A stretch of DNA of 64,000 nt from Anadara kagoshimensis (lineage: Eukaryota > Mollusca > Bivalvia > Arcoida > Arcidae), in NCBI GenBank assembly GCA_021292105.1, contig CM037866.1, positions 3,456,607-3,520,606 of the forward strand, in the 5' to 3' direction. Both the position numbers and the translations under genes were made by a program. How positions within the stretch are numbered: position 1 is the stretch's first letter; every line of letters starts with the position of its first letter. Positions 3,003-36,600 of this stretch are shown one piece after another. The notes beneath the pieces were generated by a model that was not told the DNA's origin, ran no database searches, and was given only the letters and a program-made list of their open reading frames with translations.

Positions 3003-3172
3003 GACCACTGTGGTAGCTCAGTTGGTAGAGTGCTTGCTTTGTAAGTGGGAGGTGTGGGTTCAAACCCCAACCAGGTCTGACCCAAGACTTGATAGGGTAG
3101 TGACTGTTCTTTCACCAAGCACTCAGCATCATGGACTGAAAGTCACGATTCTTTTAGATTGGAACTTATGAT
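3003..3172 (+). mobile_element. SINE-A copy, 3' truncated
   Basis: Contains the tRNA-like head with box A and box B and the following unique part, but stops at the GGAACTTATGATAA point; the gatataagtg tail is absent. Confidence 0.8.
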
Positions 3173-3970
3173 AACATACTGCATATTCAACTTTCAGTGT
3201 TGATATTGAACTTTCAAAACTTTATTCAAGACCTTCCAAAAAATAAAGACAAAAGGCTCTGGACTTTCCATTACAAAACATAATTTATAACCCCTGGCAA
3301 AAAATACTGTTACTGTTCTCCACTATTTTTAAAATCAATATTAAACTAATACTCATGTAAAAGGTTCTATTTTCAGTACATGTTTAATTTAATTTACAGG
3401 TAATGATTTTATTGGTCATGAAATCTTTGTACTGGTAAATAATTAAATTTTGTAAAATTATAATGGTTTCATTAGATGAAATAAAAGCAAACCATCCATA
3501 TAAGCTTTAATTTTGTACACATAATAGAATTATGGGCATTGAACATTGAACTTTTTTTTTCTTGGTTAGAAAAAATATTGATGTATGATTACTGTATTTT
3601 AATGTCTTATTATTTATTATTTATTATCTATTTTCACCAATTACACAGCATCCATTTATATTAAATTCTGAATGAAATGAATCAGAAAAAAAGTCAATAT
3701 TCTTAGGCCTAAAAGAATGAAGTGTGTTTCCTCTAACCTGGCCAACTTTAAATTATTTCATACACACTGTTAAAAATGGCAACTTTGCCCCACATGGTCA
3801 GTGCAAAGAAAAAAAACCTACCTACTGACCCTAATTTTTCAAAGAGAATTATATTAGTAACACATATTATTTTCTTTGGCCTTAATAAATATCGTAATTC
3901 ACTAGTTTAATATGTCTTTGCTCCTGACTGCTTAAGTGAAGAATAAACCTTTCGTTACAAAATGTAAATT

Positions 3971-7320: not shown

Positions 7321-10300
7321 GTAAGTAAAGTGGTGGTTTGAGCAATAACCTAAGTGGCTTAACCACCCCACCCCAACTCACCCAATGAATACCACTGGGG
7401 AAGTTCAGTTGGTAGTGTGCTCACTCTGTAAATGGGAGGTTGTGGATTCGAATTCTGACTGTGTCTGACCCAAGACTTCAAAGTGGGTAGTGATTGTTCT
7501 TTTGCCAAGCACTCGACATTACAAAATGAAGGTGTTTTTTTTGGCTGGGAACTTAAAATAAATGAAGTCCGTTCCCATGGTAGGCATGGCACAACAAAGA
7601 AACCCTGCAGTATAATGCCATTAGCACAATGCACAGGCAAAATTTCTGCACCTTCTATAGCTGGCAATGTCTTGATATAAGTGAAACATTCTTGACACCT
7701 ACATTAAGCACTATTACTCCATCTCGAATATGACTGGTCAGTCAGTACAAATGTATTGTGTTAAGTGCAGTAACCCCCACCAACCCCCACCCATTTTTAT
7801 GTTGTCCTTTACAGTGATTTTGTTACATTGTTTGAAAACTACCTTTTGTCTTTAAAATTGGGAAAAACTGAGGTTCTGAGATCTAGCAAACTGCTTTATG
7901 ATATACTTGTAATAGATAGTATTGCAAAGACACAATATTGTAGTACCATCTGATATTTTGTAGGTAAAGACAACTAGATTTAATTCTTTTTTCTCTGGGG
8001 AAACTAACTTTATTCGGTAGTAATCTTAAGCAAACTAAATCCATGCTTTGTCACTGATAATACATTTTTGGGTATTAAGTTTTCTGTTACATTGTATCAT
8101 GATTCAGACACTTTGATTGAAGGAATGTTCTCTTAAATGCAGCTCAGATTGCATCATTTGTTCAAAATGACCTGGACCCCTTAGAAGGTCCATCATCTTG
8201 AACTCCCCTACTACCCCAAACTAAAATCCTGAATCTGCTTCTGAAGTGTGTTGCTGCAGGTTAAACATAACATTCTGTAGGGGATGGGTTAAATGCCATC
8301 TAATTAGTTTGTTAAAAAAATCAGAACCGACCCTACAAAATATGGTGACAGACTGGTGTGTCAAGCAGATTGTATCCCAGTCTTTAAAGATTTTGTTGGA
8401 TGTTTATGACACAATGGTTAGCGCTATTGCCCATCACCAATACTGCCAGGGTCTGATTCCTGGCATTATATGACGAAAGGTTTAAGGTTTACAGTCTTGA
8501 ACATGGTGGTTCTTCATCAGGTTCTCCAGGTTTTTTTTCAAACATAAATAAGACCTTTATAGACAGGCTTGACTGTAAAAGCTGTGAAGTTCCTCCAGGG
8601 AACTGAGGGCGGGTGTTCTGGAAGAGTAAGCACTTCCTGTTTGGCTAGCTACACCTGCCATGTTTAAAATCAAAATTGAGAACGAAAGGAACATGTAACT
8701 TTGAGAAGTGAAATATTATGTTGAAAACTAGCAAATTGAGTAAAACATGTGAACTTCCACCAAGGAAGTGAGGCCAGGTGCTCAGACTAACTTATTTTTT
8801 GTTTTCCTGTTTACAGTTGAGGGTTACCAGCCAGTTATTTCGGGTAAGAACTATTTGACGGAAAACATTGAAACTAATTTCACATGTATGACGGTGACGG
8901 TGAAAGCTGCTGGACAAATGGAACCCAACTTGATTATAAAATGGAGGCTTCAGAGCGAAACGCAGGAAAATTTAAGCGTGAATACTTACGTGATTCCGTG
9001 GAACACTACGACCACTGTGAGGAACAGTACAATCGTTTTTGTTCCCATCCCTGATCACCATCTAAAGAGATTGTACTGTATCGTCGAGGAAATCTCAGGA
9101 CTAAAACGGAATTTTACAGACAGTGTCATCCTTTATGTTCTTCGTAAGTAGCGGATATTTTGTAGATTTGTAGAAATGTAATTAATTTTTCTGTTTGTAA
9201 GGGGATATTTTGTATGTTGTTACAAAAATGAAATGAAAATTTCCGTTTGTTAGTGAAAAAAATGTAAGAACAAATTTGACATTTTTCACACTATAACTTG
9301 CTACTGATATGTGTAACAAATAAATTTACATGAGTAAAATGTCCAATACTGGCTCTTAAATTTTTTTCTCCAAATGAATGGGGGTCCCAGTGGCTAAGAG
9401 CTAGGTTTAAATCCAACTCTGGTTTTCTCTGGGCACTCAGGTTTCCTCCATCCTAGAATGATAGAATCTGCCACCTGTTTGTGACCGATACCGGTTGATC
9501 TCAGTCGAGAGTAGTGTGATGTAACATATCCCAATCTAGGCTATGCCAAGATTGGGATATGTTACATCACATCACCCAAGACTGAGATCAACCTGTATCG
9601 GTCACAAACTGGTGACAGGTTCTATTTCTCATGCCACTAAAGTGTTTATAACTGTGATATGTACAAAACAAAACACATACCCTCATAGGGCCTCTTGCAT
9701 TGCATTCTTTGGGCACCTAATGCATTGTACAAATCCGCCCTTTAAAAAAAATCCCATGGACAACTCTTCAAAATTTTTCAACGATTTGTATTCATTGCAA
9801 ATATAGAACAACTCTGACAATGGAATATTTTGAATAAAAAGTAAAATAAAACACATATGAATAAATAAAGAAATTCTTTGTTTTGATGACGTCAAGTGCA
9901 ATGATCGCATACGTCATCCTGATTGTTCAGTTGTCGCATAAGGCAGTACCAGACAAACTGGACAAGACAGAAAAATCTAGCACTGGTGTGCACGTGAGAT
10001 TTTTCTGTCCAAGGTACGAGATATGACTCTTGAGTGAAGGAATCTTGAATGTGACATAAAGCTCCAATCTACTCAACTTTGTTCAATTCTTCAATTTTTT
10101 CGTAAGAAGGAAATTATTTTCATTTCTTATAAATTACATGTATATAATAATAAATGAATTTTTAGCTCACCTGGTCATAGCTATAAAGGTCATATGAGCT
10201 TTTACAAAGACTTTGTGTCTGCCATCGATGGTCTGTCATTTGTAAACTTTTTAAAATCTTTTCCTTTAATTTGTAACAGCTTAACAGAGTTGCTTGAAAC

Positions 10301-13300
10301 GTGGTAGCAATGTTTTTGCATTTGTGTGATCTCTGTGGGTACGGCTATTCAAATACATTTTTCCAGCTATATCACTGTCTTTGAATTAAAACAGATATAT
10401 GAAATGGACTAAATAATAAATTTTAATTCTCTTTTTACTCATTAAGTCACGAGGGTGCGGTGGCTTAATGGATAAGACACCAGTCTTCAAATCCCCGGGT
10501 CTCTCACCGCTGTGAGTTCGAGTCCCGCTCGGACCACATGTGGGAAAGTGAATTTTCCTTACCTGAAAATTTACTGATTCACCTGGTATCAGTATAATGG
10601 ACTAGGGGAGTGGTACGCTTGTCTGCGGCATACTGACTCTGTGAGCTAGCACGGTAAAGTTGCCCTGAGTGCGCGCTAGTACAAGGCAGACCATACAACA
10701 TACTCGCACTTCACATGCATACACAAAATTGTTCATAGATTAATCCATAGAGATTAATTAAATAGTTCTCGTCGCGAATAGCTGCAAAATTGCTGATGCG
10801 ACGTTAAGCAACATTCAGCCAGTCATTAAGTCACCCCCATCATATTTGGGGTAACTTATTGATTTACCCTTTATGATTCAAATATTGTTTTAGAATGCAG
10901 AAAATCAACTAATTCCTCCATTTTTCCCAGATTTGTCTACCCTGTTCCTTCCAGGAACCCCCAATCCTGTGCTGCATGTGATGACTTTGGCACCAGGTTT
11001 TATGTTCATTCTTTCTGGTTATTGACACTGAAAGATAATATTTATACCAGTAGTATTATATCAATGGTAGATTATTTAATAAAGAACATTCTGTATGAGT
11101 GTATTCATTCAAATTAATGAATAAATACACTCAAAAATATGTTGTGTCTTATATTTAAAATCATGAAAAATAATGTTAGCATGACAGAAATTTAAAACTA
11201 TCCTTACAATAATATGTGTTATCCAAAATTCTGACAAACATATGGTGTTGGTGGAACGGCCTTTTTCCAAATAAGGATAGAACCATGAGACAATGTGTCG
11301 CATACCAAATTTAGGTACATAGGTCAAGGGTCATGACCAAATGACAAAACCTATGGTGGAGTATAAGTCAGATTCTATGACAGTTCTAGTAACTGTACAT
11401 TACTGATTTATTTTAAAACCTGTGATTTTTGCAAGGACTATTGGTCACAAATATTCCAGAATCGCAAAATTCAAAAAGATAAATTGCGAAATATGACAGA
11501 AATTGACCATTGATGTGGAAGTTATATATAACATGACAAAACAACTGAGGAGAGGGAGATAATTGCCTATCAATGGCAAATTTTAAAATTTACATGGATT
11601 GTGATTGCAAATTTACATATTCGTGAAATTACGCTTAGGGATTTGCACACGAAATGTGATACTCACGAATTGACTGTAATCTACATTAGTACAGAAATAT
11701 GCAGTATTGGACATATTTTGTGATGCAGTGATCTACACATGTTTATTTCATCAGATCTTGTAATATTAAAGGGTTATTGAACTGATATTGTGAAATATTG
11801 TCTCAAGTTGACTCGACATTTGCACGAGCTTGCGAGTGCTAATTTCGAGTCAACAAGGGACAATATTTCACAATATCAGTTCAATAACCCCTTTATTATA
11901 TAGCAAAATAAATTTTGTTTACTTCCCACTAGTATTTCATCTCAAAATACCATTTTTTCTTACAATACATAAATATTGCACTAGTTCTTGTATACGGATA
12001 TAAGAACTAGTTCAATACGACAACAACACAATCATGACGTCGTCAGCCATGTAGCAACAATCGTATGACGTCATAAATGACAGTGTCATGTGACAAAGCA
12101 TGCAATATGAAAAATTGATTTGGGAAACCTCTGACTGCAACAAAGTTTGCGTGCAAATATAAATATATATTGCACGCTAACACCTCGGGATTTATCCTTT
12201 TATTTCTATGTGATGCATATATTGCTATATAATAAAGTGGTATAAAGTGGTTGTGAGACATCTAACACACGGGTTTACGGTTCAGAGCATCATTGAATGA
12301 AATTAAGAATCTTCAATGGAGCTTAATTGGCCATTACACCACTCTACTAGACTTTTTTATCCATGCATACGGAAATATTGAAATGATGTTTGAAGAAGAC
12401 TTTTGAAGATAGTAGTCCAACCCAGGCAAGTATAAAAATACAGTCAAACCTGTCTATAAAGGCCATTTAAGGGGAATCAGTAAAAGTATCCATTCTGGGC
12501 AGGTGGTCCTTATATACAGGTTAAAAATAATATGAATAAAGAGCAATTAGGATACAATTTTACTGACCTTTATGGACAGGTGACTCTTACATACAAATGA
12601 CCTTTAAGATAGGGTGACTGTATTGTTTTTTAGATCAAATTTTTGTGATATTTTATGCAGGAATAGAGATCTGCCACTGTACCATGTGATAAATATCGCT
12701 TAAAGTTTGTGCTGAACATTTTGGAAATATTTACATTGCAAAATCCAGAAATGACGTCATTTTCACAGGAAAACATCATCTCATTCGATTTCATATCCAT
12801 TGGTAATAAATGTTCTGCACAAATATAAGGGGATATCATGTGGCACATTGGTGAAGTCCATTAATTTGTAGCAAAAACTCTTTCGTGAGATGATTATTTT
12901 TTATTTTTGGAAATTGAACATTATCTATTTTTCAATTGAAATCAAATTTTGACAAATCTTTGAAAATTAAATAATCTATATGGTAACATCTTAATATAGA
13001 TAGTATTTTGTTCATTTTTACCCATGTCCTGGCAGTAAAAGCTCATCACATATCTGTTCAACCTTTTCTGTTCATCCCTTTGTTTATTCATACTTGATGT
13101 AACCTGTATATTGCTAACCACTGTGGTAGCTCAGTTGGTAGAGTGCTCGCTCCATAAGTGGGAGGTCATGGGTTTAAACCCTGACCAGGTCTGACCCAAG
13201 ACTTGAAAGTGGGTAGTGACTGTTCTTTCGCCAAGCATTCGGCATTATGAAATGAAAGTCACAGGAACTTAAAATAAACGAGGTCCCGTGTCACGGTGGG

Positions 13301-16300
13301 CTTGGCACCCTAAAGAACCCTGTTGTATAATGCCATAAGCGCAACGCACAGGTAAAATTTATGCACTTTTGCCTATAGCTGGCAACGTCTCGATATAAGT
13401 GAAATATTCTTGATTGGGACGTTAAACACCATTACTCACTCACTCACTGTACATTGCTGTAAAAGCAGCTGGCCATTAGTTTTCAAAGCTTTGAGACAGC
13501 CCTGTAAGAATGAATTTTTGTCACACATGTGACAAGGCAATCCAGCTATTTAACCTGTGCTAGCAGGGATTTATCAAGGGCCTATTTAGGGCCGAAATTT
13601 GGCCCTATTCCCAATGGAAAAAACATTGATTTTTTCCCAAAATGGGCTGAGAAAATTCCCAATTAGAAAATCGTACCAGACACATAGCTGAAGTCTGGCC
13701 ATAAAAGTGGCTGCTTTTCTCAATCTTCAATCAACTCAAGACACTAAAAGCATTAGATTTAATCATTAATGGCATCAAAAATGATGTCAAAGTTTTCTCA
13801 AAATGAGCAAAAAGTTGATAGTTTTTCCCAATTTTTAGTTTAGGGCCTTTTCCCAAAAGACCCTGATAAATCCCTGGCTAGATTTTCCTGTCTCGCCCTT
13901 GTTGAGACAGATCACACAAACCATCTTCCGCATTAATTGGATTTCTTTGACTTTTTAATCCAGTTCTTTAAAAATATAGAGGGCATTCTGGATGAAACAC
14001 GATCACTTACGGACACTAAATTGATGATGTCATAATCATTTTACTCAAGAACATCAACATAATTCGATGATGTCATTTTCAGACGGCAGGGATGGTGGCA
14101 TAAAAAATGAAGATTGGCCTTCAAAAAGATACAATAAAACCTGGTTGATAATGCCCCTCAATAATTTGTTTATCACCACATTATTATGAACTTGCAAAAT
14201 CACTTTGTGAACTCAACTCCTCCTGCAGTTTTCAACCAAAAAACTTGAAACTTCACAGAATGTTTCTATAAATATTGAAGATGTGCATCTGACTTTCTGG
14301 AAATATTTCAGGATTTTTTCCCCATTTTCCAGACTTTGAAACTTAGTTACTTTGTAATGTATATCAAAGATGTGCGCCTGACTTAATGGCAACCCGGCCC
14401 ATTGAGTCTTTGACCCATTTTTTTTTTTTTATAAGCTCTCTCATTTTATCGTTAAACCTCTTTTGAATGCGATAACTTGAATGAACAAATGGAGGCAATA
14501 TGTTGAGGCTTCACTGTATATATCATATAACATTGTGATGTAAGCAATATTCTCTTGACAAAGAGCATAATTCAACCTGTTAAATAAATTCAGTTTTTCT
14601 CCACCTTCTCGCTATTTGAACTTTTCTTCAGATTTTAACTTTTAAAACACCAGTATAAACGGATTAATTTCATTTCTCTTTCAGTTTTTGTTTGTTTTTC
14701 TTATGAAAATGAAGATCGGTTATTTATCCAGCAATTAGCTCGGTTTGTTTGCATGTCTGTCTGTACCTGTCTATTGAGAATAATAACAACCGGTGTCCAT
14801 CGGAGGGTGTCATGGTTGTTAAAGACTCCAACGACAGGACAAACAGAGGTGTGTCACTTGTTGGAGAAGAGTTATGTAAAATGCAGGTGCTTTTTGTGTA
14901 ACTAATAGAAAAATTAAATTTGGATTTAAATCTGAAGGTAAGTTTTAATTTGGATTTGTTAATTAAATTTGAATTATGAATTTTTATATTGGTGGTAAAA
15001 GACTGGTGTTTTTTGAATAACCAACAGGAAAATTAAAATTGGGATTTTTAATACGATTAAAAAAAATAATTTAATTTGAATTATGTTTTTGTACAGAGTG
15101 GGTTTAATGAGTGATGATGATAATGAGTACCGGTAATTCTGATGCTGATGATGATAATTAGTTATTTTGTTGGTGATTGTGATGATGATGATGATGATGT
15201 TGATGTTGATGATGATGATGATGATGATGATATGTGTTTTTTGAATACCAGTAACCCACGGGGTTCAATAAAAATTGGATTCATTAATTGGACCTAATAT
15301 TATAGTAATAATGAATTTGTTTTTGTTAAAAGGCTGGTGCTTTGTGGGTTGACAACAGAAAAAAATTGGATTAATATCTTAAGATGGGTTTTAATCAGAT
15401 TATGTTATTCCGAATTTGAAGTAATTGTGGATTTTTATGCATCAGGTTAAAGACAGCTGCCTTTTGAATATAATTTACACAAAGGAAAATTAACATTCAA
15501 TTATTAAATATCTGACAGGATTTTGTTAATTGCGCTTATAGTACCTGTAATTCCGATTTTTTGTGTTCCATGTTAAATTCAGACAGGTGCTGTTTGAATA
15601 ACCCATATGAAAATTAATTGGATTATTCATTATCTGACGGGATTTCCTTTATTGGGTTTAATATAATATTGTTTTTGGTAACAGAAAAAAAATTAAAATT
15701 TGATTAACATCTGGCGATGAATCTTAAATATAATTGTTAATTGGTCTAATAGTAATTATGAATTTTTAAATTTTATTTCTTAAGTCTTGCCACCAAGTCT
15801 TCAATTAAGGTACATGTCATTTCTCAAGAAAAATACTGGGACATAAAACCCACTCCAATCAATCACTCAACCTTAATCTTAACAAACCACAATGGTAACT
15901 CAGTTGGTAGAGTGTTGGCTCCATAATTGGGAGGTTGTGGGTTCAAACCCAGGTCTGACCCACTAGAAAGAGGGTGGTGATAGTTCTTTTATCAACTGCT
16001 TAATGGCATTACAGAATTAAAGTCACGGTTCTTTCAGATGGGAACTTAAAATAAACGAGATCCAGTGTCACAATAGACATGGCACGACAAAGAAACCTGT
16101 TGTATAATGCCATCAGTGCAACACAAAGGCAAAATTTCTGCCTATAGCTGGAGACATCTTGATATAAGTGAAATACTCTCTACTGGAAAATTAAACACAA
16201 TTACTCAACTCATCCCTCAACAAAAGTACTGGAACCTAAGACCCCATTCCTTCAATCGATCAAGGGCGCGGTGGCCTAATGGATAAGACGTCAGTCTTCA

Positions 16301-19300
16301 AATCCAGGGTCTCTCACCGCTGTGAGTTCGAGTCCCGCTCGGACCACATGTGGGAAAGTGAATTTTCCTTACCGTTGGCCTTTACTGATTCACCTGGTAT
16401 CAGTATAATGGACTGGGGGAGTGGTACGCTTGTCTGCGGCGTACTGACTCTGTGAGCTAGCACGGTAAAGTCGCCCTGAGTGTGCCCTAGTACAAGGCAG
16501 ACCATACAACACAGTCGCACTTCACATGCAGACACAAAAATTGTTCATAGATTAATCCATAGAGATTAATTAAATAGTTCTCGTCGCGAATAGCTGAAAA
16601 ATTGCTGATGCGACGTTAAGCAACATTCAACCAACCAACCTTCAATCGATCAATCAACCTAAAAACTTCACAAAAGTGCATTGCCTGATTGTTTAATCAA
16701 TATTTAAATACACTAATATATAATTTTTATGTGAAAATTTTCAGCATTCTATTACGATATGTATGACGTTAAAGTGATGAATGGATAATCACCTGTTATC
16801 GATTTTTAACACCCACCTCAAATTTGTTTGTCTCTATTGAGTCTCAAAATTATTTAAAGACTTGTTTTTATTTTAAATCTTTAAAAATCTGAATCCTTGT
16901 GTGAGAATATTTTAATTTCTTTATTAGTAATTTGTTTAAATTTGTTAAAGATTATGTGAATATTATTTTTAAAATGACTTAATACTATTTCGAACCATTT
17001 TGCGATATTAAATGTTGGTCTTGTCTTATGTATTCATTACAATATACATTTGTGTGTATATATATTTTTATCAAACTTTTTCTTTTCATTTTATTTGGAT
17101 TTTGACTCTCGGCAAGGCAAGGTAGGTAGGCTTTCAATGTTACAAAAAAATTGTAAAAATCTTTAAAAAGAATTCTTTTTAAGGAATTAATAGATAAAAG
17201 TTTTGACATACACTGCCATCCATAAATACCTATTCAAATTTACGTTTGTAAAAATTAATTTTCTGTTCAAGGAATTAAGTTTTGACAATTAATACACTGC
17301 CATCCATAATAAACTATATACAAATTTATATTGTAAAATTCTAAAAAATTGATTTTATTTTCTTTTAAAGAAATTATAAACACCTATTCAAATTAACATT
17401 TATAAAAATCTAAAATTTTGATTTTTTTCTTTTTAAGGAATTAGTATTAAAAAAGTTTCAACAATACATTGCCATCCACAAACAACTATTCAAATTTATA
17501 TTTGTTAAAATCTAAAATGTCTGAAAAAAATATTTTTGAAAATTATTTTTTAACAACATTTATAATAGATATTTTTAAGGAATTATATTATTTTTAAAAA
17601 GTTTCAGCAATTGCATACACTTTGTTTATAATTAATTTTTTTTGTGAAAGTGTATATTTCTTACTAATTTGAAGACCAACTTAAAAGGAAATAATTTTTT
17701 ACATCTGATATTCACCACCCCAGGTTTTGACTTTGGCCACATACAAATAATTAGAAAATTCAAAATGACTGTCTTTGATATAAATGAAAGAATCTAGGGC
17801 ATTAAACTCCATTACTCCACTCCACCATCTCAGAACTGACCAGCCTGATATAAGTTAAAGAATCTTGACTGGAGTGTAAAACACCATTTCTACACTCCAC
17901 TCTACCATCCCAGAACCGACCAGCTCGATATAAGTTAAAGAATCTTGACTGGGGAGTAAAACACCTTTTCTACACTCCACTCCACTCCACCATTTCAGAA
18001 CTGACCATTTTGATATAAGTTAAAAAAATCTTGTCTGGTGCGTAAAACACCCATTTCTACACTCCACTCCACTATCCAAGAACTGACTAGTCCGATATAA
18101 GTGAAAGAATCTTGGCTGGACTATAAAACACCTTTTCTCCACTCCACTCCAACATTTCAGAACTGACCGGCTCGATATAAGTTAAAAAACCTTGCTGGAC
18201 TGTAAAACACCATTTCTCCACTCCACTATCCCAGAACTGACTAGTCCGATATAAGTTAAAGAATCTTGTCTTGATCGTTAAACACCACTTCTTCACTCCA
18301 CTCTACCATCCCAGAACTGACTAATTTGATATAAGTAACATATATTTTGGTTTTTTTTTTCAGAGTACTGGTAATATGAAAGTTATTTGAACTCTGACAA
18401 AGTGATAGATAGTATAATAGATATGCAGCAGATGATGACAATGTTAAAACATGGTATTCAGCAAGGAGGACTTTTATTGGTATTGTTATTGTGCTGCCAA
18501 AATATCAACTCTCAAATAATAAGTAAGTACCAGTGTATAAAATTCAATTGATTTATTTGGATGTGTTCATTCGTTCGTTTGTTGGTTCATTCGTTCGTTT
18601 ATTTCTTCTTTCATTCGTTTGTTCGTTTGTTTATTCGTTCTTTTGTTTGTTCTTTCATTCATTTATTCATTTGTTCATTCATTCGTTTGTTCGTTCGTTC
18701 TTCATTCATTCATTCATTTGCAATTAGTTTATTAATTTATTTGTTTTTGATTTTATTTCATTGAAGTTTTTAATTTATGCAATTGAATTTTTTTAAATTT
18801 ATTTAATTGATTTGGTTTATTTAGTTGCATTTCATTTTTGTCAATTAAATTGAATGTTTTTATTAATTGAATTAATTGGTTAATTGTGTTTGTATTTATT
18901 TGTATTCTATTTTGGTTTATCATTGAATTTATTTATTTATTTATTTACTTAATTACTTATTCATTTGTGTTTGATGTATTTTTACTTAATTGATTTTTTA
19001 AATTTTTTTCATTGCATTTGGTTTATTAATTTATTTGCATTTCAGTTTGGTTAATTATTGAATTTATTTATTGATTTTTTTATGTGAGGTTAAGTATAAG
19101 GTCACTTGGGTCTTATTTTCTTTCTCTGTTTTTCAGTCCCTGCTACACAACCTAAGATTATCGGAAATCCAAATATAGTCCATGCTGAATTTGCTACATT
19201 CACTTGTGCTTCATCGGGGAACCCAGCTCCAATTGTCAGATGGAAGTTGGCTCATGAAGATGTAATGAATGTCAAGGTCGCACCAATTGTAAACTTTTTT

Positions 19301-22300
19301 GTCAACACTTCGGTCACGTTCCTAGCTCTTTACGAAGATAACGGGAAGAATTTGTCGTGTATCGTGGATCAGACGGGCAACGGCAACTCAAACCTTACAG
19401 ATTATGTTACTCTATATATTAGTTGTAAGTATGACTTAGTGAGAGAAGGTAAGGACAGGTGTCACACGAGGCAAGTTGTAAGTATGACTTAGTGAGAGAA
19501 GGAAAGGACAGGTGTCACACGAGGCAAGTTGTAAGTATGACTTAGTGAGAGAAGGAAAGGACAGGTGTCACACGAGGTAAGTTGTAAGTATGACTTAGTG
19601 AGAGAAGGAAAGGACAGGTGTTACACGAGGTAAGTTGTAAGTATGACTTAGTGAGAGAAGGAAAGGACAGGTGTCACACGAGGCAAGTTGTAAGTATGAC
19701 TTAGTGAGAGAAGGAAAGGACAGGTGTCACACGAGGTAAGTTGTAAGTATGACTTAGTGAGAGAAGGAAAGGACAGGTGTTACACGAGGTAAGTTGTAAG
19801 TATGACTTAGTGAGAGAAGGAAAGGACAGGTGTCACACGAGGCAAGTTGTAAGTATGACTTAGTGAGAGAAGGAAAGGACAGGTGTCACACGAGGCAAGT
19901 TGTAAGTATGACTTAGTGAGAGAAGGAAAGGCCAGGTGTCTCACGAGGCAAGTTGTAAGTATGACTTAGTGAGAGAAGGTAAGGCCAGGTGTCTCACGAG
20001 GTAAGTTGTAAGTATGACTTAGTGAGAGAAGGAAAGGACAGGTGTTACACGAGGTAAGTTGTAAGTATGACTTAGTGAGAGAAGGTAAGGCCAGGTGTCT
20101 CACGAGGTAAGTTGTAAGTATGACTTAGTGAGAGAAGGTAAGGACAGGTGTTACACGAGGTAAGTTGTAAGTATGACTTAGTGAGAGAAGGAAAGGACAG
20201 GTGTTACACAAGGCAAGTTGTAAGTATGACTTAGTGAGAGAAGGTAAGGCCAGGTGTCTCACGAGGTAAGTTGTAAGTATGACTTAGTGAGAGAAGGTAA
20301 GGACAGGTGTTACACGAGGCAATATGAGACGAGATGAGATAGGTGAGTAAGTATGTGATCAAAAACAAACATACTAATCCATGTCAGAATCACAATCCAG
20401 AGGCAAAGTAAACACTTGGGAACTGACAAGTCAGGTTAGACACGTGAACTTCCACCAGGGAAGTGAGGTCGGGTGCTCCGGAAGGGTAAGCACCTCCTGT
20501 TTAGCTAGCTACACCCGCCACATGTGTAATCAAAATTGTGTGACCGGAACATGGAACTATGGGATGTCAAATATATCAGGGCAATCCTTGACACAGAGAC
20601 ATCCAACTTGTCAACAATACTGTGATGACAAGTTGAGGCAAAATGGGATAGGGTGAGACATGGCTAGGCAAGGTGTCACATGAGGGGAGGCAAGGTGATG
20701 CCAGTCAAGGTGAGATAATGCCAGGCCAGTTACGGTGAGATGAAATGAGGTGACGTGAGACAAAGAAAGGGAAAAAAGTTGTAAGTACTTTTAGGTTACC
20801 ATAAAAACTAGTGTTATTTATGCAGGTGATTTTAAGGTTAAAATTTTGGTGAAAAGGTTGTACTTCTGTAAATTTTGCCCCCAAAAATTTCCAGAATCTG
20901 AATGAGGTGGGTGAGGGGAGGTAAGTTGTCTGTGAATAAGTGATGTAATCTATAAGCTGGTATTTTAAATCACTTAATCAATGGTTCTATTTTTGATTGG
21001 TTTCAATCAGAATTAACATGAATGAACTACTATAAACCAACTTTTATTCACCAAAATTTAATTTTCGCGATTCTCTTACCAAAACCAATTTGCGTCTATA
21101 AACTTTCACAATATCCTTTTAAGCTGAATATTTAATATTAATTTAAACATTTTTGGAAACAAGTTTGAGGTGATTAACTTTCGAGATTATTTTGTCATCG
21201 CAAAATACACGAAAGTTAATCGCATGGAATAAAAGTTGATTTACAGTTTGATAATAACTAAAATACTACATGTATTTCAATTTCAGGATTTTCCTTACAT
21301 TGGAGAGAAACTTAATAAAAATAAATAAAAAATTAAAAAAGATATTTGTTGTGTTTTTATTTTGACGTTTTGAAATTAAATTTTTAATCGATTGTCATTT
21401 AATAAAATGACTGGTTTTCCTGACTTCAATCTCCTTGCTAAATCTATAAAATCACGTACAAAATTGTGAAAATCTACTGTGATGCCCTTCTGCACAATGA
21501 TGTGCAGGCAGACAAACCTGTCTATAAAAGCCACCCAAGGGAACCTTTAAAAATGGCCCTTATGAGTGGATGGCTAGAAAAAACAGGTTCAAATAACTTG
21601 AATAAAAACTGATTGGGTTAAAATTATTTGACAGGTCTTTAAAAGCAATTGGCCCTTATGTAAATGTGGCCTTTAAGGGAAGGTGGCCCTTATAAAAAGG
21701 TGACCTTTAAAATCAGATGGCCTTTAAAAGCAGGTGTCTCTTAAATTAATGTGCCCTTTAAGACATGTTTGACTGTATTTGTAAATAATTAATTTTCTTT
21801 TTGTGTATATCAGATGCCACGACTCCAAGGCCAGGTAAAGATAAATGCTTGTTTTTCATTCTCGGCTAATGCATTATTTAGCATGGGAAAACAGTTATTG
21901 TTTTATGTGCAGCTAAATGTAGTGTTTATAAAGTTTGTACTAGTTTTGTTTGAAGTCTACCAGTGCTCGCTTTGTATGTAGAAAGTCTGAGATTTTTTTT
22001 TTCATTTTGCATCTATCCTTAAAAAATCTGTATGTCTTAATTGTTGCAGGTCCCCTGTCTGATTGTGTGTACATCACTTGATTAGCCTCGCACCCAAATA
22101 AGCATGAGTCACCATTTTTATGTGCATGTCTCATTCTGAGTCTAACATGTATACAAATGATTCAGAGTCTGTTACCGTTGTAATAATGTGCATCCGATTC
22201 TGACTCTGTTACCAAGATTATAACATGTAACAGATTCAGAGTTTGTTACCATGGTTATAATGTGTGTCTCATTCTGAGTCTGTTACCAAGGTTATAACAA

Positions 22301-25115: not shown

Positions 25116-28100
25116 TGCTACGGTAAGTAAAAGTGCAGAGCTAGAATTTTCGAAATAGCTCTATCCTTTAGATTGGGACACAAAAATGAAGTCTTATTCC
25201 AGACTAAGGAAAAAATCCATAAATGCTTTGAAAGTAGAGATATATAGCAGGTGATGCATCGATATAAGTGAGACAATATGACACAAATGAGTAAAACAAT
25301 GATTTCCAACCAGTAGTATAGAAGTGTGTATTGACAATCTGTTACAAAGATCACATATATTTTGAACGTATGCAATGCAAATAAGTTTCTCAGTGTTGTT
25401 TCTGTCTTATATTGATGACAATATACATGAAATATTGTTCAGCTGACTGAATACTGTCTACTGTCGTGTACTGAGGAACACAAGGATTAACACCTGAAAT
25501 GCCTGAATTTTAAAGACCACGGTTGTTTGTTGATAAAGAGTTCTATAGTTCTATTCCCTGATGGTGCGTTAGAAGAATGAACATTCCCTGTAGTCATTAA
25601 GTTTTATAGCTTGATAGAATTTGTAAGGCTAGATGGTGGTGCCTTGTACTATGGCTTGATGGTATCGGTCGCTCTTATTAACTATCAATTAATTATTGAC
25701 AATCATACAAAAAACATTGTCAGTATTGGATCTGTCCTGTGTTTTTTCCAGTGATCTCCAGTCCCGATGAAATCAACTACTTTTCAAATATTTCCAAAGT
25801 TCCCTTTGAAACTGTAACGGGTATTTTTCGACATATATTTCAGTCTTGATTCTTATATTATCAGGGCTACTGGAGAAAAAAGTGTTGTCACAAACAGCCG
25901 ATTTATGGCCAGCGACCTGGCAAACTAGGATCTGTCTCAGTTGCAATTCAAACCTTGGGTGACGACTTGCAATGTGCTGTATAAGTCAGGCGCGATAGAT
26001 GATTCTCTTTTGAAAGATCATTGTGTCACTTGTGCTCCTAATGCACCTTCAATTTGTCGTCAAATACAAATGGTATATAGTGTTCACTTATTCTCTATTA
26101 CCCGACCTAGTCTAAAATTTAACCACTGTGGTAGCTCAGTTGGTAGAGTGCTTGCTCCGTAAGTGAGAGGTCGTGGGTTCGTGGGGTCTGACCCAAGACT
26201 TGAAAGATGGTAGTGACTTTTTTTTTTTGGCCAAGCACTCGCCATTACGGTTCTTTTGGATGGGAACTTAAAATAAACGAGGTCCCGTGTCACGGTGGGC
26301 TTGACACGCTAAAGAACCCTGCTGTACAATGCCTTCAGCGCAACGCACAGGCAAAATTTCTGTACCTTTGTCTATAGCTGGCGAGGTCTCGATATAAGTG
26401 AAAAATTCTTGACTCGGATGTTAAACACCATTACTCAACTCAACTCATTAGTCTGAAAATAGGCTGCTACATAACCGTTATTTCGTCAAGCATTCGGTAA
26501 TTTTAATTACTAGTAGAATGACATTCCAATAGAATTTTCAAATAGCGATCTAAACTTTTTCCTAATTAAGAAATCGGACAAAACCAGCTGTAGCAAAGTG
26601 TTTCATGTATTCTGTGTTCATCAAAACTTTCATATTTCTGTTATTTTTATGTGCGCATTTTATGTTTGAATATTACAAAAGTACACGTTTTACACTCAAT
26701 TTTTCACCTATACTGTAGCTTAGTCGGTAGAGTACTAGTGTTGTATATGGGGAGTTTGGGTCCGAACACCGACTGGGTCTGACCACGACATGGGAATAAA
26801 TAGTGACTTTATTTTACTCAAGAACTTGACATTCAAACTACAGGTTTTCGGAGGGGGGGGTGTGAAACGATGACCATGTCATGGTAAGGAACCTAGCAGA
26901 TTGCACTGTGTGCACTGCGATGATAAACAATTCTGCCGCTTCATCTTTATCCCGATATAAATGAAATATACTTGACTTGGAGGTAAAATCCTAATCAATC
27001 AATCAATCAATCAATCATTTAAGTTCCAATTCTAGCGAAAATGAGACAATTTTAAAAACCAGTTCCCTCTTATTATAAATATCATTAATACTAATCAAAT
27101 TCGACAGAACCTATATTCTACCATCTAAAAAATGTGAGGATAGCAAATTTATACTACTTCTCGGATTTTCGAAGTTTCCGTTGCCATGGTAACGGATATT
27201 TGATTAAATTTATGACAAAATTTAAATAAAGTGAAAATCATCATATAAGTGTTTACAATATATATTGCTGACCATTCCGTTTTAAATTGTGGAAAGTCAG
27301 AACCCTACATGTACGTTCTAGATCAACATTGAAACTAACAGAATATGGATGTTTTTGTTGAGAATTAAGCATGCCTATTTTAAGTGAAATTTGTCATATT
27401 TTAACAATTTGAAGACTACACGTCGTATAAATTGTTATTAGATGATTGAAACTGATTTTATTTATCAAAATTCATATTTTTCATTTGCTGGTATATATAA
27501 ATAGGCGAAATGTTTTAAGTTTTTAACAGAAATTCCCTTTTTGTGGTTTTTAAGGGTATCCGGTTTCTGTTGCCATGGTAACCGATATTTGTCGAAAATA
27601 TTTTTTATTCTTATTTAGTATAATAAGGTAAAAATATATTTATGGTTTTACCTTCTATTACATGTATCTCCATCGATAATTTTAAAAAATGGAGTCGAAA
27701 CTGCGATCTATTTGGTTGTTCAAATATAAATTTAGCACATATATATATAGTGTTTGTTTTCAGTATTTGGTTGAAAATACGCAAAATTTGCTGCTTTATT
27801 TTTGGGGAAAACATGAAAATTTGGATATAATTTTTAATAGCATCCTTGCGTAATATTTAAATTTAATATGGACTCGAATAAATATTTTTCTAATGTGTCA
27901 AAATTAGGATATGAGCGATTTATTGAAACAAATGCAAAAATGTGCAAACTATTACTCATTTTCTTGGTAAAATCGATGGTTACGTTGCCATGGTAACTGA
28001 TATTTAGATTTTATGCACCTATAAGTGAAGTATAGTATATAGGGATACTAAATATATATGGGTTGGTTTTTACAATTTTTAGTCTAAATGCCCGAAAAAT

Positions 28101-31100
28101 TGCGTTGAAAATCAGGTACTGGTTTTGTAAAAAGCCACAAAAAATAGCGGGGGTTAAGGGGTTAATGATGTCACTGACACTAGTACATCATTAGTAGCCG
28201 TGACGCTGCTTGTGTACCGTGATGGTGGCCAGTGTCAGAACATTGTGGGCGTGGTCGGCGAGATGTCAATTGACTAATTTATCAGCCCATCATGATTTTT
28301 CTTTAAAAAGTATTGCACGTTATTCTGGCTTTATCAGGGAAAAAAATTTATATGAATGATTAAGAAATAAACTTTAGTGAATTTTATGGAAAAAATACAG
28401 CTTTCTAAAAAATAAATTTAAGTATTTTATAAACTGTCTCAATATTTGATGCATGTCTCTGTATGCAGATTGTTGTGTTGTATGTATAGTGCGTCAAGTT
28501 TGACCTGACCGTTTGACCTTTAATTTGAATATTCAAACTGGCATATCCATTGTGTTATTTAGGGGCTATATAAAGTTGATATAAAAGGATAGATTATAGT
28601 AATACTGGGAACTGGCTGTTTATGGCAATGAAACAGCCTGTCTACCCTCAGTCACACAGTCTTTTAGTCCAATCTAATATTCAAATTAAAGGTCGAACGG
28701 CCAGGTCAAACTTGACACACTATAAAAGATGTCTGTAGAGAAATGACCGATTTTCTCTCCACTAGTTTTTGGTTAATTAATTTTGCTTAGGTGACTTGAA
28801 ACTCAATTGTATTTCTAATTTTGAATTTTCATTTTTTTTTTTTTTGGTATCAGATGTACCGATTGCAAAGATATCTAAAGACCAGTATCTAGTGTCTCCG
28901 GGAAGTCAGATTACGATGAACTGTTCTATCCAGTCATCGCTGGATATTACCCAAATTTACTGGAAGAAATTATCCAATGGAAATATGGACATTTATCCGA
29001 ATACTAATCCTAATAAATACGGGATTACCAATGACGTCTTATCCTCGCCCAAAACATCTGTGTTAAAAATAAATAATATTGACAGTTCTAATGCCGGGAA
29101 TTATGTTTGTCATGCAGTGCCCTCTAGTGGTGATCCTGGAACCAGTAATACTGTTAGAGTTAATGTTGTCAGTAAGTATAAATCAAAAACAAACATACCA
29201 GTCCATGTCCAAATTACAATCCATAACAAAGTAAAAACAAACATACCAGTCTATGTCCAAATTACAATCCATAGGCAAAGTAAAAACAAACATACCAGTC
29301 TATGTCCAAATTACAATCCATAACAAAGTAAAAACAAACATACCAGTCTATGTCCAAATTACAATCCATAACAAAGTAAAAACAAACATACCAGTCCATG
29401 TCCAAATTACAATCCATAAGCAAAGTAAAAATAAACATACCAGTCCATGTCCAAATTACAATCCATAAGCAAAGTAAAAACAAACATACCAGTCCATGTC
29501 CAAATTACAATCCATAAGCAAAGTAAAAACAAACATACCAGTCCATGTCCAAATTACAATCAATAAGCAAAGTAAAAACAAACATACCAGTCCATGTCCA
29601 AATTACAATCCATAAGCAAAGTAAAAACAAACATACCAGTCCATGTCCAAATTACAATCAATAAGCAAAGTAAAAACAAACATACCAGTCCATGTCTAAA
29701 TTACAATCCATAAGCAAAGTAAAAACAAACATACAAGTCCATGTCTAAATTACAATCCATAAGCAAAGTAAAAACAAACATACCAGTCCATGTCCAAATT
29801 ACAATCCATAAGCAAAGTAAAAACAAACATACCAGTCCATGTCCAAATTACAATCCATAGGCAAAGTAAAAACAAACATACAAGTCTATGTCCAGATCAC
29901 AATCTATTTGTTTCCGTAAATGGTTTTATTTACACCAAATATTCAGCTAAAGTCCATATGGCGAAAATTAAGTCACAAAATGGGTTTGGTAAAAGAATCG
30001 CGCAAATTAGTACCCACAAATAACATTGGGTTTACAGTACTTGATCTACAGAAGATTATCAGCATGTTCATAGGACTTTAGAATTTTAGTTCAATTTGAC
30101 TGAAAAATTTTAGTTCGAGTTAATGAACATTATTTTCATTAAATTTTCACTTTTCAATTTTGACTTTTCCCTCCCAGACCTTTTAAAAAAAGTTGAGACT
30201 ACAGTTAAAATCCGAAGATATGAGATACATTGTATCTGTTTTCAGGATAATGAGGTTCATCTGTATTGTATTTAAAAATATTTGAATGTATTTGAAATTA
30301 TATTTTTTTTTTAAATTTTTAGCTTTCCAATTACTATCCACACAATATACCAGAGCAGTACAGAGCAATGTAACCCTTGACTGCTCAATGACTGGAACGG
30401 CGGGGATGAACTACGAGATTCGCTGGTACAAGAATGGACAGGTGCTAGATCTCGGCAGAGACTCCAGACTCGTTAACGGTAATCAACAAATTCCATCATT
30501 AACCATCTACAACTTACAGGCGGCGGACAGCGGGAAATACACATGTCAGATACGAAGTGGCACTGATTCTCTGATGAGTCCCGAAATCACGCTGAACGTT
30601 CAAAGTAAGTCAAAACATGATAACGTGAGTTTGTTTTTATCTTTTTGCAATTCCGGTGGAGTTGAGTGGAGTAATTGAGTTTAACATCCTTGGAGTCGAT
30701 ATTCTTTCACTTACCGTATATCAAGGCAGTCAGCTCAGAGATGATGGGGTGGAGTTATGATGTTATATTCCCCAGTCAAGATTCTCTGTCACTTAGTCAA
30801 GATTCTTTGTCACTTATATCAAAGTGGTCATTCCTGGATGGTTTACACCACTGTCAAAATTATTTCATTTATATTGAAGTGGTCAGTTTTTAGATGGTGG
30901 GGAGGAGTAATGGTGTTATATGCCCCAGTCAAAATTATTTCACGTATATTGAAGTGATCAGTTCTGGGATGGTGAAGAGTTTTACGGAATTTTACACCCC
31001 AGTCAAGATTCTTTTTTGTGAACTACCGGTAATAAACTTTTTCAAATTCATACTAATTCAATTTACACTGATTTTAGTATTAGATAATGATACACAGCAT

Positions 31101-33571
31101 TCAAACTTTTAAGTGATATTTTGTTGTACACAATGTCTTGATTGTTGTTAGATATTTTTGCATTGCTGCACAAGTCAACATGTTGGACACTGTTTAATTA
31201 ACTGGTCAACTGATTAATATTGATAGTTAATTATAAGAATTCTCCATTGAACAATATTGTTGGGTTCTGTTGTACATAACACAGTATGAAATTTTTTTTA
31301 CCAAACAGTAAATATTATATACAGACAAGATTTTAATTGATTTTGCAGCACTTTTCCCAAATTTGGAGGCATTCCCAATGAAGCATTTTCCTTAATAGAT
31401 CTTTTCTCCCTTCTTGATTTCCGGAATTAAATTGTGTCCATTTCCTTAGTATCATCTACTGATGTCACAATCATGGAGGTGCTTTACCTTTATCAGTGAA
31501 CTTAAGTAGACTGTCAAGCTCACAAGTGATCTTTATCAATATCAACACATGTTTTAGTTCCTTTGACAATGGTACCATATTTGAATCGGCTGTTTTTGGT
31601 TTATCGGAGCTATTTCACACAACAGAATATACTATACAGAAAAACCCACTAACACACCTTCGGATTCTTTGTAAAAAACAGAATCTTTTAGTAGAAAGTG
31701 TCAATTAAAAATGTTGGTGCAAATGTTACTGTCGTGGATGTGCCAGCTGAAAATTATGGTCAATAGGCACCAGAAATTTTGGTTTTTGGCATTGATAACT
31801 TTCTTAAAATTATTCAATTGAATAAATTTGAAAATTCCCCATTGGGGAGATCCGTGTTTGGAAGTTTTGGAACTTTTCTGTGAAGAAGGATTTGAAAGTT
31901 GAAGTATACTAAAAGTTCTTACTTTTAATTTTTAGGCAGCGCTCCAGAAGTTACAGTCTCTGCAATACCTTACATCAAAAATGTTGGTGAAAATATTAAC
32001 CTAGCATGCAGCTTTAACCAACCAGTGTCCAGTGTTTACTGGATGAATACCCGCACAAATCAACGATACACCACAAGTCCATCATCTCCAAATTTGATAC
32101 TGAACAGTGTTACTACTGCCCATGCTGGTAGTTATGTTTGTAGTGGCGTCAGTACCGCTAGCGGTTTAACTGGAAACAGTGTCCAGGTCCCCTTGATTGT
32201 TATCGGTAAGTAGTCTGGATAACAGGAAAGATTGTCCATCTCGCTGTTTGTAATTGATAGATAGTGTGTAGTGGTTTAACTGGAAACAGTGTCCATCTCG
32301 CTGATTGTTATCAGTAAGTGGTTTGATTAACAGGAAAGATTGTCCATCTCGCTGGTTGTAATTGATAGATACAGTTGACTCAGGATATAACGAAAATGAA
32401 GGGGGCTGATCGATCACCTGGTTATAGCCGATATTCGTTGTATCCAAAACCGGAAGTCTGGGAAGTAAATGACTTAAGCTAATGAATATATGATAAATAC
32501 ATGTATAGTAGAACTTCGATGGCTCGAAGTTCGAGCAACCAAACATCGAGAGGCGATCTTCATTAGATTTAGGTTTCGGTCCCTTTAGAAATACTAAATT
32601 CACGATGATATCTCGAAGTTTTCAAACTTCATTTGTAATTAAAACGTTGAACCTCGAACGGCAAATCCATCGATATTGAAATAAATAAATTTGGTTGAAA
32701 ATAAAAGTAAATAACAACAACTGATGATATAAAATAAACTTACTTTATTATCGTTGTAATACAGAGCACATGGTATTGCCGGTTATTAATAATCACCGGA
32801 ACTACCGGTAATACACATTGCCATGCGCATTCCAATAAAATGTAAATAACAGAATCTGAATATTCTATGATGAGGTAAAAAGTCAATCATCTGGCGTGGA
32901 CTCGCGTGTTCTACCGATCAAGCACCCACGGGTCGTAATTGAATTAAGAGATTAATGATCTGATCACGGTTAATTACTAATCTTAAATAACACTCTATGT
33001 TCCAGATGAGTTATTTTGTTTCCCTCTATTACTTTCGGTGAAATCTGTATCATGGCTTCAGCTTGTGTTTTGTTTATAATGACTGACCACATGTATATAT
33101 TACATCTGTATTGTAATCAGGTGTCTGTCGTCACAGCTGATTCACCTCTGATCGCTCGTTATAACAGGTGATTTTTACATACTTTTAGTAACGAAGGGGC
33201 AAGTATTTTGCCTCGCTAAAAGCGATATCTCGTTGTACCCGATCTCGCTATATGCGGTAAGAAAAAAGCATAAAATATAGACACTACTGACGGGGAAATT
33301 AAATGACCTTGTTAAAAACGATATCTCGCAATAAGCGATCTCGTAATAGCCGGAGTTAACTGTAGTGTGTAGTGGCTTAACGGGAAACAGTGTTCATCTC
33401 GCTGATTGTTATCAGTAAGTAGTTTGCTTAAAGAGGAAAGATTGTCCATCTCGGTGGTTGTAATTGATAGGTAGTGTGTAGTGGCGCGAGTCTCACTAGC
33501 AGCCTAACGGAAAACAGTGTCCCAGTCTCTTTGTTATTGGTAAGAAGTATGCTTTATGGGAAATTGTGTCC

Positions 33572-33607
<36 letters not shown>

Positions 33608-36600
33608 TTGCTAACATTTTAACAGCAAAAATGTAAACTGGCACTTCCATTTGTTTCTGCCATTTCCCTCTGCAGTTATCAAACTTCCATTTGTTTCTGC
33701 CATTTCCCTCTGCAGTTATCATGTTTTTACCAAATATAAATTTACAATTAGTGTTTATGACATCACATTTGATCAATTTCTTATCCCTAGCCAAAGGGTG
33801 TTTAACTCCATTCCATTTTATTTCCTTTTCCAGTTCAGTGGTTATTTTTCTAGGAGTTATGGCCCTTTTGAATTTTTTTCAATGATTACAAATACATCTT
33901 GGCTTTCATTAAAAGCTGTTGTTCATTTTTCTATTAGATACAGTTCAATGATTTTTTTAGGAGTTATGGGCCTTTGGATATCAGTTATTATATATACCTT
34001 TTTTTAGGAGTTATGGCCCTTTGAATATCAGTTATTATATATACCTTTTTTAGGAGTTATGGCTCTTTAAATATCAGTTATTATATATACCTTTTTTTAG
34101 GAGTTATGGCCCTTTGAATATCAATGATTACATATACCTTTCTTTAGGAGTTATGGCCCTTTGAATATCGGTAATTATATATACCTTTCTTCAGAACATC
34201 TTGCTTTAACTGAAATTTTTTATTCATATTTTTTAAATTAGATACAGTTAAAACTCAGTACAGTGAGACAGTCGGAGGAAGCGTAACGTTAAGCTGTAAC
34301 GTCAATTCTCCAAGCACCAACTACGCTATATCATGGTATAAAGAAGGATTGAATATTAATATCGTCGGTAATCCAGGGAAGTACGAAGGTGGTTTGGTCT
34401 CATCGCCAGGATTGAAGATAAAATCACTTACAACAAGTGATGCTGGGACATATTACTGCAGAGTTACGTTTAACGGCCAGACGAGCTCGAACAGTGCCAA
34501 TATAAACCTTCAAGTTACGCAAAGTGAGTAATATAATACTGTATGTTCTTTAAACAAGTTTTCATCTGTAAAAACAAGAGTTTTCTAACAATAATGTTAT
34601 TATTCATTTTCATATTTACCAGCTATTTGACTAGTATTTTGCTTGTATTTTCATAATTACAAGGGCTCCGACCCCATTCACAAACGTTTGAGAGAAAACC
34701 CTGAATTTAGTGCAGTTTTAACTGACGTGACTGAAGAATTAAAGACTTTAATTTATGTAATGTTTTATAGGGAAAACCTGAAGTTCACCAGACAGTGGTG
34801 GAAGTTACACAACAACAACAACATATACCGGTAGCCATCAATTCGTCATCAAAATCATCCCTTATTTAAATAAATGGGGGACAATTGGCAAGAATCAATC
34901 TCAGAATTATTTAGTTTCAGCTTAAAAACAACTGCTGAATCCTTAGAAATTATGACATCAAATTTTCTGTGGGGAAATTTGGTGCGAAGCAATTTTGGGA
35001 CTGGATCATTTTGTTGCCATGGAGTTTAGCTTATCTCTCCAAGAAAACTACCAAATCCATCAAAATTCTAACAATTTTTGTCAAAATTTTTGTAGGGACA
35101 TTTGGTGTGAAGCAATTTCAGATCATTTTGTCGCCACGGAGATCATCTTAACTTTTCTGGAAAATTGTCAATTCCATCTAAATTGTGACAACATTATATC
35201 AAGATTTCTGTAAAGAGAGTCTTTTGCCAATTACCTTTGTTACTATAAATGATCCGGTCCTGTTATCGTTTTAGGCCAAATGTGTCTCATTATTGAATGT
35301 CGGGTTGGTGGTTAAGTTTGATATTCTGTCATCATCTTGAAAGCTTTAAATTTTGTGTTTTAGGTATTCCGCCTAGCATCACTGTCCCGACTACACCGTA
35401 CATCGTGAACTCTGGGGACAGTGTTAGGTTAACTTGTAATGTGAATGAAGCAGTGTCTCAGGTATACTGGACCAAAGTTGGGACTGGACAAAGGTTTACA
35501 GCAAGTTCCATCAGTTCAACCAATTGGTTTTTAGATCTTAACCAGGTTACTGCTAGCAATGCAGGAAGTTATATTTGTAATGCTGTGAGTTCCGTTTCTG
35601 GTTTAACAGGAAGTAGTTCAGCAGTTAGCGTGGTTGTTATTGGTAAGTTATATTTGTAATGCTGTGAGTTCCATTTATAGTTTAACAGGAAGTAGTTCAG
35701 CGGTTAGCGTGGTTGTCATCGGTAAGTTCTTTAATTGGCTTGTTATTGGTGAGTTGTTACTTGTTTGTTCTCTACTTGGCGTCTATGTGTTTATTGTGAT
35801 TCATATATATATATATAATCAACATAATAAGTTCTACAAAATTTGCAAATAGATTTGACTTTGACCTTTAGTTCAAGGTCACAGTGATGTTATCTGCAGA
35901 AGCAACTAAATAAAACTTCTTGTGGTCAACCAAAAGGAATACAGTCATTGAACTTTATACATAGAATTAGTGTGTTGAGCGATAGATTTGACCTTGATCT
36001 TCATTCAAGGTCACAGTGACCTTATATCGAAAATTCTATAAATAACTTCTCATTAACCAAGAGGCTTGTCATCATCAAATTTCATATATAGAATCAGAAG
36101 AGGTATACCACAGAAAATTGCTCTGATTTTGGCTAATGCCCACCAGGTGCGCGAAAGAGGCCCTTATTGGGTCACTTGTTTTTGTCATTTATAATTTATA
36201 TCTATTTGATTTAAATTTTACACATAACAGTATTGCCACCTTATATAACGAAGCCAGCCAAAGTCGCTGTATATTGACAACTTGGCTAAAGAAATTATGC
36301 AAATGAGTTTCCCTTCATGGGGATTTGACCTTTTCAAAGGTCAATTTTGGACTTGTAATTTTTTCATAAGGATCTTTTTCAGAATTTTTCTCAGTAAAGC
36401 ATCAGTTTTATGAAATTTAAACTGAACAAATGATGATGGTATGTTTAAGCTAACTTTATCAACTATCAATATGCAACCTCAGAACAATTAAGATAAATAA
36501 TGCCCTTTTTACTGATAAAACACAGATTTATTATTATACCCCCCCCCCCCTTAAAAAGTGGGGGGTATATAGTGATAGGGGTGTCCGTCTGTGTGTCCGT

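Follow-up and report, generated by a model that had tools for sequence, protein, structure and literature searches.

A 53-bp tandem array spanning the predicted 5' splice site of an immunoglobulin-type exon in the bivalve Anadara kagoshimensis

The window, by which we mean the whole 64,000-nucleotide stretch of contig CM037866.1 that was analysed, has a G+C content of 33-38% per 4-kb block. We assigned 27 exons of Ig type to it, and the exon after them has the look of a membrane-spanning segment. These Ig exons are predictions (16 by pattern search, the rest from the open reading frame list and the splice-site listing), and their membership of a single gene is an assumption. In a Pfam scan of 10 exons, eight of the nine Ig candidates match Ig families and the membrane exon matches none. 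The donor of the exon at 54457 is uncertain, the length of that exon not being a multiple of 3. Between 35329 and 46041 lie two kinds of closely related Ig exons with several repeats, the listed copies being 83-95% identical in DNA, and this stretch looks like a recent tandem exon expansion. The features around exon N1b are as follows.

19137-19424, plus strand: predicted Ig-domain exon N1b, 288 nt, phase 1-1 (Pfam C2-set_2, acceptor TTTTTCAG, donor)
19421-20321, plus strand: array of 17 x 53 bp, unit 1 holding the exon end and the native donor (TRF, unit comparison)
19425-19432, plus strand: native 5' splice site GTAAGTAT, with copies at +53k, k = 1 to 16 (homologous N1a donor at 9144)
19449-19456, plus strand: secondary donor-like site GAAG/GTAAGGAC at +24, in frame and open, at the same offset in 6/17 units (motif and U1 scan)
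19577-19584, plus strand: first of nine GAG/GTAAGTTG sites, U1 pairing -10.7 kcal/mol (motif and U1 scan)
20343-20350, plus strand: ATAG/GTGAGTAA, -12.2 kcal/mol, the strongest U1 pairing among the sites listed for the first 1600 nt of the intron, adjoining a repeat also present at 29168-29238 (U1 scan)

Exon N1b scores barely above threshold against Pfam C2-set_2 (22 bits, cut-off 21). Its 3' edge is supported because the homologous exon N1a (8817-9143), which itself has no Pfam match, ends at the equivalent codon and in the same phase (TTC/GTAAGTAG). The next exon is predicted at 28854, which gives N1b a downstream intron of 9429 nt. The initial annotation had called the donor of N1b a working, full-consensus site. 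It is a predicted 5' splice site, and that it works we only infer; GTT/GTAAGTAT matches U1 fully on its intron side and not on its exon side (the duplex with U1 comes to -7.3 kcal/mol), so that full consensus was an overstatement. Measured by U1 pairing, the native donor is one of the weaker donors of the gene: of the 26 others predicted, 20 pair with U1 equally well or better (3 of the 20 are ties), and a matrix built from those 26, few sequences as they are, gives it the lowest score (3.9, with the others at 6.4-14.3).

Tandem Repeats Finder (TRF) delimits the array at 19421-20319 (17.0 copies, 95% matches, 0% indels), while unit-by-unit alignment resolves 17 full 53-bp units at 19421-20321, each with 0-3 substitutions relative to the consensus; the 17 exact-period copies reported initially are thus upheld. 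The same account began the array at the N1b donor, and the donor does sit in unit 1, but the true start at 19421 brings in the last 4 bases of the exon. GTAAGTAT recurs at 19425 + 53k (k = 0 to 16), in the context AGTT/GTAAGTAT in all 17 units. Many units had also been credited with a second donor, as the secondary motifs GAGGTAAGTT (9/17) and GAAGGTAAGG (6/17) bear out; these stronger donor-like sites read GAG/GTAAGTT and GAAG/GTAAGG, respectively. GTAAGT occurs 82 times in the window on both strands, against a shuffle mean of 37.4 (100 shuffles, largest 55), with 26 of the 82 words inside the array. The first 457 nt of the N1a intron carry no such array, their match to the 53-bp unit being limited to GTAAGTA.

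Only six columns of the unit vary (30, 35, 43, 44, 48 and 52), with columns 30 and 52 determining whether the two secondary donors have their GT. The variant combinations recur in blocks, units 3-5 repeating the pattern of units 6-8 and the pairs 11-12, 13-14 and 16-17 being alike, as expected from multi-unit duplication, and these internal blocks suggest turnover of the array. The variable columns all lie within the final 24 positions of the 53-bp unit, leaving the 29 donor-holding positions invariant in 17/17 units (hypergeometric 0.006, a post hoc value that ignores shared descent of the variants). This hints at constraint on the donor-holding columns, although homogenisation would give the same pattern.

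Four further donor-side duplications are present in the window. The final 70 nt of every exon, taken together with 12 nt of intron, were compared with the intron that follows over as much as 1500 nt, and any match above all 300 shuffles and above a chosen cut-off of 32 was scored as positive. Sequence from the exon end or donor is copied into the next intron at 5 of the 27 predicted Ig exons (donors 19425, 32206, 35643, 47096 and 51941). Among 28 acceptor sides one is positive (31936, an exon-internal fragment), and acceptor 34242 scores 31, just below the cut-off, with a shuffle maximum of 26, so that the acceptor cases could be 2/28. The four additional donor-side cases are these.

32159-32371, plus strand: repeat (periods 51/108) of the 3' end of exon 31936-32205 and its donor, with a second donor copy at 32314
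35566-35728, plus strand: 79-bp x 2.1 duplication of the 3' end of exon 35364-35642 and its donor, with a second donor at 35722
47055-47143, plus strand: 43-bp x 2.1 duplication of the 3' end of exon 46808-47095 and its donor, with a second donor at 47139
51962-52403, plus strand: 41-bp x 10.8 array resembling the 3' part of exon 51653-51940 without its donor, starting 21 nt past that donor

At 32206, 35643 and 47096 the copied stretch comprises roughly 30-67 exonic bases and the donor. The donor is present twice at 35643 (79 bp apart) and at 47096 (43 bp apart), and in each case use of the second copy would lead to a stop. By eye, the exon-internal copy follows directly after the first donor at both sites, the join sharing AAGTT at 35643 and AAG at 47096.

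The window holds repeats of several other kinds. A second 53-bp array (42963-43833, 16.4 copies) begins about 105 nt past donor 42858, and its unit looks unrelated to that of the N1b array. A 49-bp x 14.8 array (29185-29904) starts 13 nt past donor 29172, its unit matching a dispersed repeat at 20357-20415 and, inverted, near 60089; the exon-end comparison found no copy of that exon's end in the array. Degenerate repeats of about 50 bp (48786-49353) seem by eye to start at donor 48786, several copies reading ATAAGT for GTAAGT, and the exon-end comparison does not support a copy there (p 0.24). A perfect 40-bp tandem duplication of the acceptor-like CCCTCTGCAG is intronic (33643-33721). A dispersed repeat, at most about 340 bp long, occurs at 433-775, 3004-3174, 7391-7719, 13116-13442, 15885-16212, 26121-26446, 45220-45563 and 57533-57812. 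The Rfam tRNA model matches three of the copies and ARAGORN finds no tRNA gene; the repeat is perhaps a tRNA-derived SINE.

Whether duplication favours donors was asked with scans that gave differing answers. Enrichment of local duplication at donors as such found no support (4-7 of 27 donors over six settings, rotation P 0.04-0.45), and in the same scan acceptors are depleted (0-1 of 27, P 0.002-0.016). For the edge tests, TRF rows were merged by hand into 27 arrays of period 20 or more, shorter periods being dropped. With test intervals picked after the data had been seen, left edges of arrays fall near donors in 3-7 of 27 cases over five intervals (rotation P 0.0006-0.025), and a within-intron null gives P 0.012-0.097 over four. 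Right edges near acceptors number 0, 0, 1, 0 and 3 of 27 over the five intervals against rotation means of 1.4, 0.9, 1.7, 0.7 and 3.3, with no significant depletion. A donor bias is suggestive only, its statistical support depending on the null chosen.

The anatomy of the N1b array is that of the amphioxus mirages, tandem repeats lying across exon-intron boundaries of both types, variable in length and, in the excerpted reports, accompanied by normal splicing where examined (PMC3087553, PMC3902484). According to the same excerpts they occur in Adh3, the globins BflGb6 and BflGb9, troponin C and PGBD5 (PMC3087553, PMC3902484). The array looks like a clean example of this known kind, a donor-spanning mirage repeat: a short unit is repeated in tandem (17 x 53 bp), every copy keeps the splice signal GTAAGTAT (17/17), and the unit spans the boundary, narrowly, by 4 exonic bases at a predicted exon edge. 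It differs from the amphioxus cases, which include acceptor-side mirages, in having a 53-bp unit with 4 exonic bases in 17 copies on the donor side, and in the presence of several donor-side cases in one window. The G+C content of the window, too, looks unlike that of amphioxus and, together with the character of its repeats, suggests a mollusc. The recurrence of donor-side cases is what is new here, and it is mildly surprising.

We therefore regard the array as probably a mirage-type minisatellite whose growth, seeded by the native donor, has been mostly neutral. Among the three roles proposed initially (decoys that capture U1, graded 5' splice-site choice, and minisatellite growth seeded by the donor) the third is the best supported, by the variant blocks, the repeat phase and the mirage anatomy. 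A tandem duplication would have captured the last 4 bases of the Ig exon with about the first 49 bases of the intron, and further single- and multi-unit duplications would have brought the array to 17 copies, as the repeat phase and the variant pattern suggest. With the original copy kept at the exon edge, normal splicing would most likely still take place at 19425, and the extra donors would mostly be tolerated passengers. Donor-side copies might be tolerated in general since the original exon and donor stay intact upstream, whereas a duplicated acceptor would be a competitor placed before its exon. An argument against taking this as a general rule is amphioxus BflGb6, which has an acceptor-side mirage and, in the excerpted account, regular splicing (PMC3087553).

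Exclusive use of 19425 is not obvious, the native donor being weak with stronger sites shortly downstream, and the array could instead offer a functional choice of 5' splice sites, which we think unlikely. Use of the +24 site would yield an isoform with eight extra residues, and later sites would yield truncated or decayed transcripts that tune output. The +24 site pairs better with U1 than the native donor (-10.0 vs -7.3 kcal/mol), and among the candidate donors listed for the first 1600 nt of the intron it is, with a weak site at +57, the only one both open and in frame. The +53 donor has an open extension but a shifted frame that leads to a stop in the next exon, and every listed candidate from +106 on has an in-frame stop inside its extension, which argues against this reading; most extra donors, if used, would by their frames give premature-stop transcripts. 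The initial annotation had noted that a 53-bp step would cycle the frame. The arithmetic is right, but it is made moot by the stops from +106 on, and frame cycling as a coding mechanism was rejected on their account. A human interferon-gene minisatellite, that of 6-16 (IFI6/G1P3), reportedly provides multiple splice donor sites, going by the title of a 1995 paper by Turri, Cuin and Porter. The title has units supplying donors, as is the candidate role here; donor use is stated there, and here the sites come from genomic sequence. In young human paralogues, the excerpted text of another study describes minisatellite expansion at exon-intron boundaries that may alter splicing and form introns, and within segmental duplications such boundary repeats accompany alternative transcripts (PMC2812944). 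Those human cases have transcript support, the present one being read from genomic DNA. Set against them are the amphioxus mirages, whose duplicated splice signals are reported, in the excerpts, not to disturb splicing (PMC3087553, PMC3902484).

Improbable in our estimation is a second functional reading, in which the repeated donor-like sites are left uncut and serve as landing sites for U1 snRNP that aid an exon with a weak donor, or as decoys. Within 0.9 kb the array has 32 GT sites whose U1 pairing equals or exceeds that of the native donor, a density of 35.6 per kb where the window as a whole, with the array counted in, has 2.2 per kb. The minus strand of the array holds none; the donor core, moreover, is unchanged in 17/17 units. 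In a PAH study, U1 binding at a position downstream of a natural 5' splice site is reported to be stimulatory, and the excerpted text of a C. elegans study ties one intronic minisatellite, CeRep25B, which lies near alternative exons, to multiple splicing decisions (PMC4039745). Against this, the related exon N1a does without such an array. Among the other arrays, scored with 5 of the 27 omitted, 20 of 21 have 0-3 plus-strand sites of this strength, the exception being 42963-43833 with 14. The folding stability of 19405-19690, about the first five units, is not above that of shuffles (z 0.17).

Very unlikely is an origin of the array as part of an interspersed mobile repeat inserted at the edge of the exon. 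A dispersed repeat does follow it (20357-20574, with relatives near 8584, 29185 and 60089), but unit 1 coincides with the exon's own donor. Beyond 1.5 kb the 64-kb window shows no other locus of the 53-bp unit, and nearer by, 0.3-0.6 kb downstream, there are only weak traces (scores 31, 25, 24 and 22, where 200 shuffles reach at most 28). No other copy of the unit turned up that could serve as a comparison.

A donor-spanning minisatellite in an invertebrate Ig gene was not found among the literature matches listed. An abalone TSSK1-like gene has an intronic minisatellite of variable copy number (PMC6905558) and an earthworm metallothionein has intronic repeats; units spanning a splice site are not described in the excerpts for either. 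The mirage-type reading of the N1b array might, if doubtfully, be part of something wider: the Ig gene may be prone to recurrent duplication of exon 3' ends together with the donor, with short matches to the donor motif as a possible route, and the donor arrays so produced could tune exon use, either as poison extensions or by giving U1 places to land, and could be a source of new introns.

The excerpted accounts of the amphioxus and the human repeats both propose that new introns can arise from duplicated splice sites (PMC3087553, PMC2812944). With 17 equal donors at one exon and smaller donor duplications at others, intron origin and donor choice become testable in one transcript. Equal donors in tandem are a natural test of how the spliceosome chooses, and if only the first is used, that would itself be informative on how the end of an exon is recognised.
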